From: Devosia insulae DS-56 | GTDB taxonomy: Bacteria; Pseudomonadota; Alphaproteobacteria; Rhizobiales; Devosiaceae | Direction: 5' to 3' | Length of the DNA stretch: 64,000 nucleotides | NCBI RefSeq assembly: GCF_000970465.2 | Contig: NZ_LAJE02000363.1 | Span: forward strand, 1-64,000 | Shown: one piece after another, positions 14,728-29,358 of the stretch | Layout: the number at the start of each line of letters is the position of its first letter | Position numbering within the stretch: position 1 is the first letter of the stretch | The notes under the pieces: model-generated | What the model was told of the DNA's origin: nothing | The model's input: only the letters and a program-made list of their open reading frames with translations | Database searches by the model: none | Position numbers and translations under genes: made by a program

Positions 14728-15531
14728 ATGGTCGGCTTTCACGTGCTCACCAATGCGGAACGGCTCGATGTTCCCGAGATCCGCCGTATCGGCTTCGACG
14801 ACCTTACGGGCGCCCTGGCCGAGGGCTGGCGCGATTTCTGGCAACGGCCGTCACATTTGGCCTTCCTGGGCCTAATCTATCCGCTGGTCGGCGCCATGCT
14901 GGCCGTCTGGACCTCCGGCAACAATTCCTGGCCATTGCTGTTCCCGTTGATTTCCGGCTTTGCGCTGGTTGGCCCGTTCCTGGCGCTGCCGATCTACGAG
15001 ATGAGCCGACGACAGGAGCAGGGTCTCGATACCCACTGGCGCGCCGCCTTCGAGGTGTTCAGGACCCCGGCCTTCGCATCAATCGCCGCGCTGGGCGTGA
15101 TGATGCTGATCGTCTTCACCGTCTGGCTGATGACGGCGCAGTTCATCTACGAAACGTTCTTCGGCCCGGGCTCGCCCCCGACTCTGATGGCCTTCGTCAA
15201 CGAGGTGCTGACCACGTCCGCCGGCCAGCAGCTGATGATCTGGGGTAACCTGATCGGCTTCGTGTTCGCGGCCTTCGTGCTGGCGACCATGGTGGTCTCG
15301 ATCCCGCTGCTGCTCGATCGCGACCTTGGCACTGCCATCGCCGTGCAGACCTCGCTACGGGTGACGCTGAAGAACCCGCTGCAGATCGCCGCCTGGGGCT
15401 TCATCGTCGCGGCGCTGCTGGTCATCGGCACGATTCCGCTGCTGGTCGGGCTCAGTATCGTGGTGCCGGTGCTCGGCCACGCCACCTGGCATCTCTACCG
15501 CCGTGCCGTGGTTCCGGCCGGCGGACGTTAA
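14728..15531 (+). CDS. DUF2189 integral membrane protein
   Basis: Protein of 267 residues with about six hydrophobic helices and the DUF2189 N-terminal signature (RRIGFDDLTGALAEGWRDF, then a helix ending at PLV). Function unknown; the family is widespread in Alphaproteobacteria. The ATG at 14728 is preceded by AGGAGG (14716-14721) at six-base spacing; the ATG at 14722 directly abuts the AGGAGG and is unlikely. The stop codon (TAA, 15529-15531) lies inside a CtrA box. Confidence 0.8.
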   Translation: MVGFHVLTNAERLDVPEIRRIGFDDLTGALAEGWRDFWQRPSHLAFLGLIYPLVGAMLAVWTSGNNSWPLLFPLISGFALVGPFLALPIYEMSRRQEQGLDTHWRAAFEVFRTPAFASIAALGVMMLIVFTVWLMTAQFIYETFFGPGSPPTLMAFVNEVLTTSAGQQLMIWGNLIGFVFAAFVLATMVVSIPLLLDRDLGTAIAVQTSLRVTLKNPLQIAAWGFIVAALLVIGTIPLLVGLSIVVPVLGHATWHLYRRAVVPAGGR

Positions 15532-15543
15532 CTACTCGTTAAC
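15528..15543 (+). promoter_or_regulatory. perfect CtrA-box (TTAA-N7-TTAAC)
   Basis: TTAA CTACTCG TTAAC matches the alphaproteobacterial CtrA consensus exactly, overlapping the stop codon of the DUF2189 gene and lying about 138 bp upstream of the small membrane protein gene at 15681. TTAA words are rare in this GC-rich sequence, which raises the weight of the match. Binding is inferred, not shown. Confidence 0.55.
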
Positions 15544-15680: not shown

Positions 15681-16016
15681 ATGGCCCGTTCGCGCGGATT
15701 TGACCTTTCGCACTTCACCGACGACGCACAGGACCGGTTCGGCCGCCAATTCTCGAGCCTCGCACGCGATGCGAGCCACCTGTCCGATGCGCTCAGTCGT
15801 TACAGCGCTGGCGCACGGCATGATGTCGGCCACTTCGCCCACGACCTCGCCGATGGCGCGATGCATCAGGGCGCCGTCGCAGCACGCGTGCTCGGCAAGC
15901 AGGCGTGGAAGGCCGGTAAGGCTGTCCGCCGCGATCCGGCGCCGACCATGGCGGCGCTGGTCGGCATCGCCTGCCTTGTCACCCTGGTGATGGCATCGGG
16001 CGCACGCCGCCACTGA
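15681..16016 (+). CDS. small single-pass membrane protein, unknown
   Basis: Protein of 111 residues: a polar, His/Asp/Arg-rich amphipathic N-terminal region (FDLSHFTDDAQDRF, RHDVGHFAHDLADGA) and one C-terminal transmembrane helix (APTMAALVGIACLVTLVMASG) with a short basic tail. The overall shape resembles ElaB/DUF883-type tail-anchored proteins, but I cannot claim membership. The ATG at 15681 has GAGGAG upstream. Preceded by a CtrA box and a hairpin. Confidence 0.65.
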   Translation: MARSRGFDLSHFTDDAQDRFGRQFSSLARDASHLSDALSRYSAGARHDVGHFAHDLADGAMHQGAVAARVLGKQAWKAGKAVRRDPAPTMAALVGIACLVTLVMASGARRH

Positions 16017-27527: not shown

Positions 27528-29117
27528 CTAAGCTGCGCTCACCTGAACCAGCCCCGGCAGCACTACCGGGGCATTCAGAGCCCGCGCCAGATCGCGGAAA
27601 GCGCCGGCCTTGAGCGCTGGGGCGAAGAGATAGCCCTGCGCCTGCACCACGCCGCGCGCCCTCAGGTACAGCGCCTGGGCCTCTGTCTCGACGCCCTCGG
27701 CGACGATCTCGGTGCCGAGGTCGCGCGCCATGGCGATCAACCCGTCGAGCACCGGCACCGGTGCCCCCTCGGGTTTGATCATGTCGACGAACACCCGGTC
27801 GATCTTCACCACATCGACGCCGAGCGTCTGGAGGTACGCGAGGTTCGAGTGCCCGGTGCCGGCGTCGTCCATCGCGAGCTTACAGCCCAGCGCGTGCAGC
27901 CCGGCAATGACGCTCTGCGCCTGAGCCATTTTCTCGAGCGGCTTCCGCTCGGTGATCTCGAACACCAGTTGGCGGAAGCTGATCGGCGAGTTGGCGAAGA
28001 TGGTGTGCACGTCGTCGACCACCGTGCCGTCGCGGAAATGGCCTTCGAACAGGTTGATCGAGACCTTGAGGTCCGGCATGTCGCCGCAAAGCGCGCTGAG
28101 GTCGGCTTTGACCTGCTGCATCAGGCTGACCGTCATCGGCAACGCCAGTCCGGTGACCTCGGCATAGTCGATGAAGGCGCCCGGCGGCACCACCTCGCCG
28201 TTCTTCTTCTCCCACCGGCACAGCACCTCGCAGCCGGCCAGCGCACCGGTCCGGAGATTGATCACCGGCTGGTAGTAGGGTTTCAGCTCCCCCGCGGCGA
28301 TTGCCCGCTCGAGGTCGAAGGCCGGCAGGTCAGACCGGCGGACATATTGCAGGGCGAGAATCAGGAACGCCCCGCACATCAGAGCTGCTACCACGGTGAA
28401 GCTCGCGTCGAGATCGCCGTAGTCGGCCCGCACGATGGCGAACGGCACCGCCGCTGCGACACGGATCGGCAGTTCACCGGCAAAGCTTTCGGCGGTGACG
28501 AACTCGATATTGCCGCGATTATCGTAGGCCTTGGGGTCGCCGACGGTAACGATCTCCGCCCCGTCGGTCAGCGACACCCGCATCATCGAGGTCGGCTTCA
28601 GTCCGTTCAGCAGGCTATCCGGCTCGGCCGCCAGAATCGGCACGAAGGCCGAGACTTTTCGCGTCGTGCCGAAGGCCTGTGTCACCTTCAGCGCGGGCAT
28701 CCGGAGGTCGGCGTATTTCGCCACCTCGAGGGTCTCGGTCTGGTTAGGCACCGACAGCGGGCGCGACAGCGGCGAGTATTTCACGTCCTTGCCGAGCGCG
28801 TCGCAGTACTGCACCCCGTCGGCATTCTCGACCAGCACCTGCTTCAGATAGAGGCTCACCTCCATCTGCCGATGCACGTTGGCAATGAAGCTCGGCGTAC
28901 AGAGCGAAGGGCTCTCGGCAAGGATGCGCCGAAGCGACGAGATGGCGTCATAGGCCGTCGCCTGCACCCGGCTCGCCACTGCATCGACCGATTGCTGCAG
29001 CAGCGCCCGCTCGCGCACCCGCACGTAGGAATCGAGCAGGAAATCCACGGCCATGACCGGCAGGAACGCGGCAATGGCCGCGAGCAGCATCAGCACATGG
29101 ACATACCTGGACTTCAA
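27528..29117 (-). CDS. CSS-motif/EAL cyclic-di-GMP phosphodiesterase
   Basis: Protein of 529 residues. TM1 is at about 8-28, a periplasmic CSS-like sensor domain with Cys73 (LCTPSF) and Cys105 (VQYCDA) spans about 30-235, TM2 is at about 240-260, and the EAL domain spans about 265-515. The EAL catalytic set looks complete: EVL (297-299), SINL, FEITE, MDDAGTGHS, VVKIDR, VAEGVE and AQGYLF. In E. coli CSS-EAL enzymes the redox state of the cysteines controls activity. It degrades c-di-GMP, lowering sessility signals. A perfect CtrA box lies 51 bp upstream of the ATG. Flanked on both sides by palindromic repeats. Confidence 0.9.
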   Translation of the reverse strand: MKSRYVHVLMLLAAIAAFLPVMAVDFLLDSYVRVRERALLQQSVDAVASRVQATAYDAISSLRRILAESPSLCTPSFIANVHRQMEVSLYLKQVLVENADGVQYCDALGKDVKYSPLSRPLSVPNQTETLEVAKYADLRMPALKVTQAFGTTRKVSAFVPILAAEPDSLLNGLKPTSMMRVSLTDGAEIVTVGDPKAYDNRGNIEFVTAESFAGELPIRVAAAVPFAIVRADYGDLDASFTVVAALMCGAFLILALQYVRRSDLPAFDLERAIAAGELKPYYQPVINLRTGALAGCEVLCRWEKKNGEVVPPGAFIDYAEVTGLALPMTVSLMQQVKADLSALCGDMPDLKVSINLFEGHFRDGTVVDDVHTIFANSPISFRQLVFEITERKPLEKMAQAQSVIAGLHALGCKLAMDDAGTGHSNLAYLQTLGVDVVKIDRVFVDMIKPEGAPVPVLDGLIAMARDLGTEIVAEGVETEAQALYLRARGVVQAQGYLFAPALKAGAFRDLARALNAPVVLPGLVQVSAA

Positions 29118-29167
29118 GCGAATCCGCCCCCAACGGAGATAGGCAACAAATGCCTAGCGGGCGGACT

Positions 29168-29183
29168 TTAAGAGAGTGTTAAC
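29168..29183 (+). promoter_or_regulatory. perfect CtrA-box upstream of the EAL gene
   Basis: TTAA GAGAGTG TTAAC is an exact match to the CtrA consensus TTAA-N7-TTAAC, 51 bp upstream of the EAL start codon. A CtrA dimer here would sit where a -35 region is expected, a common activator position. Inferred from sequence only. Confidence 0.6.
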
Positions 29184-29238: not shown

Positions 29239-29358
29239 AAAACGGAGGTTCCCGCTTTCGCGGGAATGACCCGGTGGTTGGGACCGGGACGGGGACAACG
29301 ACGCGGACCGACGCTCACACCCACTGAGTCATTCCCGTGAAAGCGGGAACCTCCGTTT
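29239..29358. repeat. REP/REPIN-like palindromic repeat (GTCAT inside)
   Basis: Arms 29239-29269 (AAACGGAGGTTCCCGCTTTCGCGGGAATGAC) and 29328-29358 (its inverse with one or two changes) enclose a 58-bp spacer. The units are the same as those at 27422, but their order is swapped so that GTCAT faces inwards. Lies in the 227-bp stretch between the EAL promoter and the end of aspS; nothing else is visible there. Confidence 0.85.

Follow-up and report, generated by a model that had tools for sequence, protein, structure and literature searches.

A conserved TTAA-N7-TTAA box marks a predicted CtrA-activated promoter of a membrane c-di-GMP phosphodiesterase gene in Devosia

The sequence at positions 29168-29183 of the 64-kb stretch of Devosia DNA analyzed here (the window) is very probably a CtrA-binding site within a CtrA-activated promoter of the sigma-70 type, which would drive expression of a membrane-bound c-di-GMP phosphodiesterase. 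Devosia is placed in the Devosiaceae (Hyphomicrobiales), and the closest named record is Devosia sp. Root413D1, at 96% protein identity. Since most of the closer relatives have kept this switch, a genuine regulatory connection seems more likely than coincidence.

A direct read-out of the window confirmed TTAAGAGAGTGTTAAC at 29168-29183. On the gene (minus) strand the box reads GTTAACACTCTCTTAAA, with half-sites at 29168-29171 and 29179-29182, and it extends from -65 to -51 relative to the start codon. The TTG start of the EAL gene lies at 29117 on the minus strand, 51 coordinates away with 50 nt between. Both the TTAA-N7-TTAAC sequence and the 51-bp distance agree with an earlier note on this DNA, which had also described the TTAAC consensus as exact. 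The match itself stands, but on the gene strand the box has its strict TTAAC end on the side facing away from the EAL gene. Given that the TTAA halves are palindromic, the agreement with the CtrA consensus holds despite this orientation. A plus-strand gene was rejected as the target of the box, since the next candidate that seemed plausible by eye is a 438-aa ORF from 31260.

TTAA is rare in this DNA, as previously remarked: the window has a G+C content of 65% and contains 12 TTAA words, and no TTAA-N7-TTAA pair arose in 100 dinucleotide shuffles. The window holds two such pairs (at 15528 and 29168) and no TTAA pair with any other spacer of 0-19. The second exact box, TTAACTACTCGTTAAC at 15528-15543, is preceded by G (palindromic ends); ~138 bp further on, at 15681, lies a 111-aa ORF that has no Pfam match. 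An inverted repeat of the REP-like TTCCCGC..GCGGGAA type (29240-29358; 47-nt arms, 87% complementary) separates the EAL gene from its neighbor, an aspartyl-tRNA synthetase gene by eye, and some relatives have words resembling it at the equivalent position. No Rfam match was obtained in the window.

The genome (5.75 Mb) encodes CtrA: a single protein lies far over the cut-off for this regulator (425.2 bits against 350), with the next match at 177.7 bits. A ChpT-type phosphotransferase is also encoded, as are GcrA, whose frame was reported with one TGA inside, and a methylase that carries PF01555 plus RAMA, lies behind a box and is, in our reading, CcrM. The region upstream of ctrA (L054, 1150-1480) is rich in TTAA half-sites, as if the gene were autoregulated.

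The motif is enriched across the same genome, where TTAA-N7-TTAA occurs at 24 places, compared with 4 for the N8 spacing and 5 for the reversed word AATT-N7-AATT. Strand matches to TTAAN7TTAAC number 26, and those to the reversed pattern 3. Summed over 19 genomes of the genus, the counts are 428 (N7), 63 (N8) and 153 (reversed AATT-N7-AATT). Genes neighboring the 24 places were taken from our own ORF script, and 20 of their proteins were given to Pfam, three of which had no match. The matches comprise flagellar proteins (FliX, FlgI and a rod protein, FlgB by eye), signaling proteins (an NtrC-type response regulator, a receiver protein, an Hpt protein and two GGDEF-EAL proteins), the CcrM-type methylase, HrcA and RNase PH, a sugar transferase, a UDP-GlcNAc 2-epimerase, a Sel1 protein, an EF-hand protein, a periplasmic binding protein and a GINT1_N-type protein. 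Several boxes thus precede classic CtrA targets (ccrM, flgB, fliX/flgI), and the Caulobacter promoters with CtrA motifs include ccrM and flagellar genes according to excerpts of PMC4287350. With a CtrA ortholog present, the motif enriched genome-wide and copies before known CtrA targets, the proposal that the sequence is a CtrA box is strongly supported, together with the conservation described next.

Conservation was assessed in 80 named loci, 69 of which contain orthologs of the EAL gene; these come mostly from Devosia, with Arsenicitalea and Pelagibacterium (both Devosiaceae) and metagenome-assembled genomes without a genus name. Loci L151-L161 were excluded (30-38% identity, with ten matching the EAL part only), and L136, where the contig starts inside the gene, was left out of the count, giving 68 orthologs with a readable upstream region. 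An exact TTAA-N7-TTAA is found at -55 to -69 in 55 of these 68, and its seven spacer bases vary among the orthologs that have it. The remaining 13 have one mismatch (nine), two mismatches (three) or no box (one). Because the 68 orthologs are related, the 55 exact boxes do not represent 55 independent events. Lack of conservation in relatives had been named beforehand as an outcome that would speak against the box; conservation is what we found. No further exact box was detected in the 432,035 bases of the ortholog loci.

Two other searches, in sets that overlap those above, gave similar results. A genus-level search found the exact box in 14 of 17 orthologs, and the 12 best-scoring of 20 additional same-family genomes all have it (12/12; this set overlaps the other genus sets); the additional same-family genome G145 (L211) has no exact box. 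The start region of the gene aligns in 17 same-genus orthologs, which mostly begin L/V-K-S-K/R from a TTG, a GTG or, once, an ATG codon. Within 150 bp upstream, spacers of 3-11 other than N7 occur in 0-5 of the 68 orthologs, with the exception of N6 (40/68), which arises because a third TTAA often lies 10 bp farther upstream. This third half-site (TTAA-N6-TTAA-N7-TTAA) is present in 40 of the 68 orthologs and absent from the window.

The sequence between the box and the start codon contains a candidate -10 element. A GCTA at 29155-29158 (minus strand) begins 9 nt downstream of the second TTAA, and [GC]NTA follows the second TTAA at an offset of 9 in 29 and of 10 in 21 of the exact-box orthologs, or 50 of 55 in all. 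If this is read as the -10 element, transcription is predicted to start at 29144 on the minus strand, ~27 nt before the TTG (±2 nt), and the 5' base of the box falls near -38. Full CtrA motifs in Caulobacter have their 5' base near -35, for example at -39 in ctrA P2, in the excerpts of PMC4287350. The conserved -10-like element would place the box near -35, an activator-class position. A dyad, TAGGCA-N5-TGCCTA (29140-29156, on neither strand in particular), overlaps the -10-like element, is present in the closest relatives and is perhaps an operator for a further regulator.

We also looked at this layout across the genome, where 18 of the 24 places have a predicted start 25-130 bp downstream, giving 21 box-gene pairs. 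[GC]NTA at 8-11 nt occurs in four of the 21 pairs, in each case at 9 nt: ccrM and three EAL genes. Given that only four pairs have it, the element is not general for the boxes of this genome. That ccrM and the EAL genes share the layout was noticed afterwards, not predicted beforehand. The loci concerned are L075, L071, L079 and window positions 29117-29183, and no others have the 9-nt layout. In the other families described below, [GC]NTA lies at an offset of 9-10 in six of 14 exact-box promoters.

This layout bears directly on whether CtrA would switch the gene on or off. It is unlikely, in our judgment, that CtrA represses the gene, or acts together with SciP/MucR-type repressors, so that the phosphodiesterase would be made in CtrA's absence. 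Caulobacter CtrA motifs can repress, as at -14, and the third TTAA 10 bp upstream in 40 of the 68 orthologs indicates that the site often comprises more than a single box; yet in the same excerpts of PMC4287350 full motifs near -35 constitute the activator class, and ccrM, listed there among the CtrA-motif promoters, has the identical layout here.

Activation by CtrA may extend to other EAL genes. The genome has 15 EAL matches, three of which carry the box 48, 50 or 56 bp before the start, compared with an expectation of 0.07 boxed EAL genes (hypergeometric P ~3e-5, for 24 boxed genes among an assumed total of 5500). The enrichment near EAL genes that the earlier note had suggested is therefore seen, with 3 of 15 matches boxed. 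The second gene (C203) encodes a PAS-PAS-GGDEF-EAL protein and the third (C357) a GGDEF-EAL protein with a CHASE4 match just under the cut-off and a GGDEF signature that is degenerate by eye; all three boxed EAL proteins keep the eight EAL positions discussed below. Counting the genome itself, an exact box precedes C203 in 14 of 18 readable genus members (19 loci, with L172 cut by the contig end; inexact in L169, L176, L178 and L180) and C357 in 11 of 13 (14 loci, with L204 cut; inexact in L201 and L203).

A second potential regulatory element lies beside the start codon. A GATTC, the CcrM-type GANTC, occupies 29120-29124 (minus strand; -7) and overlaps a GGA that may be the ribosome-binding site. 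Of the 68 orthologs, 49 have a GANTC no more than 25 nt from the start, compared with 4 that have one in the 60-nt stretch between -150 and -90, and the genome encodes both GcrA and CcrM. One could therefore propose that methylation acting through GcrA and CcrM at this site is the main control, with CtrA secondary, a view that we consider very improbable. Among the orthologs lacking GATTC, six of 25 have a GANTC with a different middle base, as this proposal would have it, but GA.CT is equally frequent (6/25), and over all orthologs the start-side pattern GG.TT (50/68) matches GA.TC (49/68). Moreover, the GANTC would lie at ~+20 from the predicted transcription start and overlap the possible ribosome-serving GGA, and none was listed close to the start codon of C203, the second EAL gene, in 15 of its loci. 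Methylation control through the start-codon GANTC is thus suggestive only. The whole window contains 75 GANTC, against ~207 expected from base composition.

To follow the predicted CtrA box beyond the family, we used an order-level alignment (A2) of 397 genomes, 162 of which gave a match at 1e-100. From these 162 genomes, 77 upstream regions were selected (60 fetched places plus 17 loci), representing 17 other families; the sequences are best hits, not proven orthologs, and the gene start was set by hand in L260, L263, L266 and L267. An exact box is present in 14 of the 77 regions, in every case at -53 to -68 from the modeled start. Its distribution is patchy, reaching seven of the 17 sampled families: f13 (3/4), f27 (1/8), f34 (2/8), f35 (1/1), f41 (1/14), f43 (4/4) and f52 (2/3). 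Spacers of 3-6, 8-10 and 12 were found in none of the 77 regions and N11 in one, and exact control words were found in 0-2. When one mismatch is permitted, N7 (34) still contrasts with the other spacers (2-10), but the control TTTA-N7-TTTA is as frequent as TTAA-N7-TTAA (34/77 each); weight can therefore be placed only on the exact counts and on the contrast between spacers.

All 11 upstream regions from f44 contain a one-mismatch box, with TTAA-N7-TTAG at -52 to -58 in nine loci. In this family (L245-L268) all 18 matching genomes show two matches of the EAL enzyme. No box with up to one mismatch was found in the sampled f10, f12, f15, f21, f24, f40 and f49 (20 regions). The inexact boxes of 13 of the 68 family orthologs and the lack of a box in these seven of 17 families indicate that CtrA control is not essential to the enzyme. 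That the box is a chance pair of AT-rich words serving no regulator is scarcely credible: AT-rich promoter DNA does favor TTAA, and the one-mismatch TTTA form is just as common across the order, but chance would hardly keep an exact box at a fixed place in 55 of 68 orthologs while its seven inner bases vary, or yield the observed spacing specificity and the excess over exact control words.

The gene behind the predicted CtrA-dependent promoter (27528-29117, minus strand) encodes a 529-aa protein consisting of a TM helix, a CSS-like periplasmic domain, a second TM helix and an EAL domain. The EAL domain (27618-28316, minus strand; residues 268-500) matches PF00563 with 215 bits (cut-off 31.3). 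It retains E297, N355, E387, D417, D418, K438, E474 and Q494, which we take to be the catalytic and metal-binding positions of EAL enzymes. With the domain and these eight residues intact, the protein is a predicted c-di-GMP phosphodiesterase. Its EAL part also matches NCBIfam PRK10551 (NF007839), which we take to represent PdeC, although only over residues 236-509 and with 196.6 bits, below the equivalog cut-off of 461.

The periplasmic region (28425-29015, minus strand; about residues 35-231) lies between the two TM helices, ahead of the EAL domain, and contains two cysteines, C73 and C105, that are conserved without exception in 43 sequences from the family and 27 from the order level. None of 17 Devosia proteins matched the CSS-motif family PF12792 at E 1. 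Among the 24 order-level proteins, ten homologs from other families were run against PF12792, and six exceeded its cut-off. The CSS assignment made in the earlier note holds by homology and by the two invariant cysteines, not by Pfam score, as Pfam does not recognize the domain in the Devosia protein. The same evidence supports the accompanying suggestion of a redox-type periplasmic sensor, in which the two cysteines would form a disulfide switch. In a structure model (mean pLDDT 83.9, pTM 0.52), long helices at residues 4-68 and 234-261 flank a mixed domain and presumably span the membrane. The best solved match in a fold search is the EAL domain of PA3825; because EAL structures dominate the matches, they do not inform the periplasmic domain.

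From these features we infer the following course of events. Phosphorylated CtrA would bind both TTAA halves across the -35 region, the box starting near -38, and would bring RNA polymerase to the GCTA serving as the -10 element 9 nt on, so that the transcript would begin with a short (~27-nt) leader. The phosphodiesterase would then reduce c-di-GMP at the times and places of CtrA activity, in the late predivisional or motile cell, and the periplasmic cysteine pair may tune its activity to the redox state. A feedback loop between c-di-GMP and CtrA is plausible by analogy with work on Caulobacter and Rhodobacter in excerpts of PMC9756655 and PMC7200025, the latter of which describes the Caulobacter loop mechanism.

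Several known systems share features with this arrangement. The Caulobacter crescentus full-motif promoters likewise have TTAA-N7-TTAA near -35/-39 and include ccrM and flagellar targets; the Devosia case differs from what the excerpts of PMC4287350 describe in its host, its CSS-like EAL target and its -10-like [GC]NTA at a fixed 9-10 nt, and in that the CtrA site is a predicted one. In Hyphomonas neptunium, six genes with predicted roles in c-di-GMP metabolism are under direct CtrA control (PMC7200025, in part), and loss of CtrA in Rhodobacter capsulatus changes the transcripts of c-di-GMP genes (as cited in the excerpts of PMC9756655). In both, as proposed here, CtrA affects genes with a predicted role in c-di-GMP synthesis or breakdown, so this kind of link is already known; the excerpts name no CSS-EAL enzyme, however, and the Devosia link was judged by sequence conservation across a family and outside it. 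The Devosia promoter would represent a new, well-conserved case of CtrA control of c-di-GMP genes.

The enzyme itself is similar to Escherichia coli PdeC (YjcC), a redox-responsive CSS-EAL phosphodiesterase with two TM helices, a two-cysteine periplasmic loop and a C-terminal EAL domain, the free-thiol form of which is more active, in the excerpts of PMC8846402. In contrast to PdeC, the first cysteine of the Devosia protein lies in SLCTP and not in CSS. In function, Caulobacter PdeA is a comparable phosphodiesterase, which helps keep c-di-GMP low in swarmer cells. According to the excerpts of PMC3764195, PdeA contains a GGDEF domain and is eliminated by proteolysis, whereas the Devosia enzyme has a periplasmic sensor region and would be controlled through a CtrA-type promoter. 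A literature search, which omitted most subscription papers, returned by title no study of CtrA in Devosia, and within the same scope no paper describing a CtrA link to a CSS-motif enzyme; neither c-di-GMP words nor TTAA occur in PMC2877005 or PMC4433202.

A broader proposal, tentative and in our view rather doubtful, is that Devosia, and patchily its order, has a 'CtrA-ccrM class' of promoters (TTAA-N7-TTAA, 9 nt, [GC]NTA and a start codon ~50 nt after the box) that fire several phosphodiesterases together with CcrM. c-di-GMP would then fall at each division, with periplasmic redox state vetoing or boosting the fall and methylation of the start-codon GANTC perhaps resetting it. The members found so far in the genome are ccrM and the three EAL genes.

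c-di-GMP is known to act on the CtrA pathway. Control in the opposite direction, from CtrA to c-di-GMP enzymes, has been reported in certain species, and the regulons differ greatly between them (PMC7200025, in excerpt). The predicted promoter would make one such regulatory arm visible as a long-conserved promoter throughout the family, with scattered occurrences in seven other families. It also provides named promoters and a simple prediction, that phosphodiesterase transcripts would peak with ccrM, in Devosia, which can be cultured.
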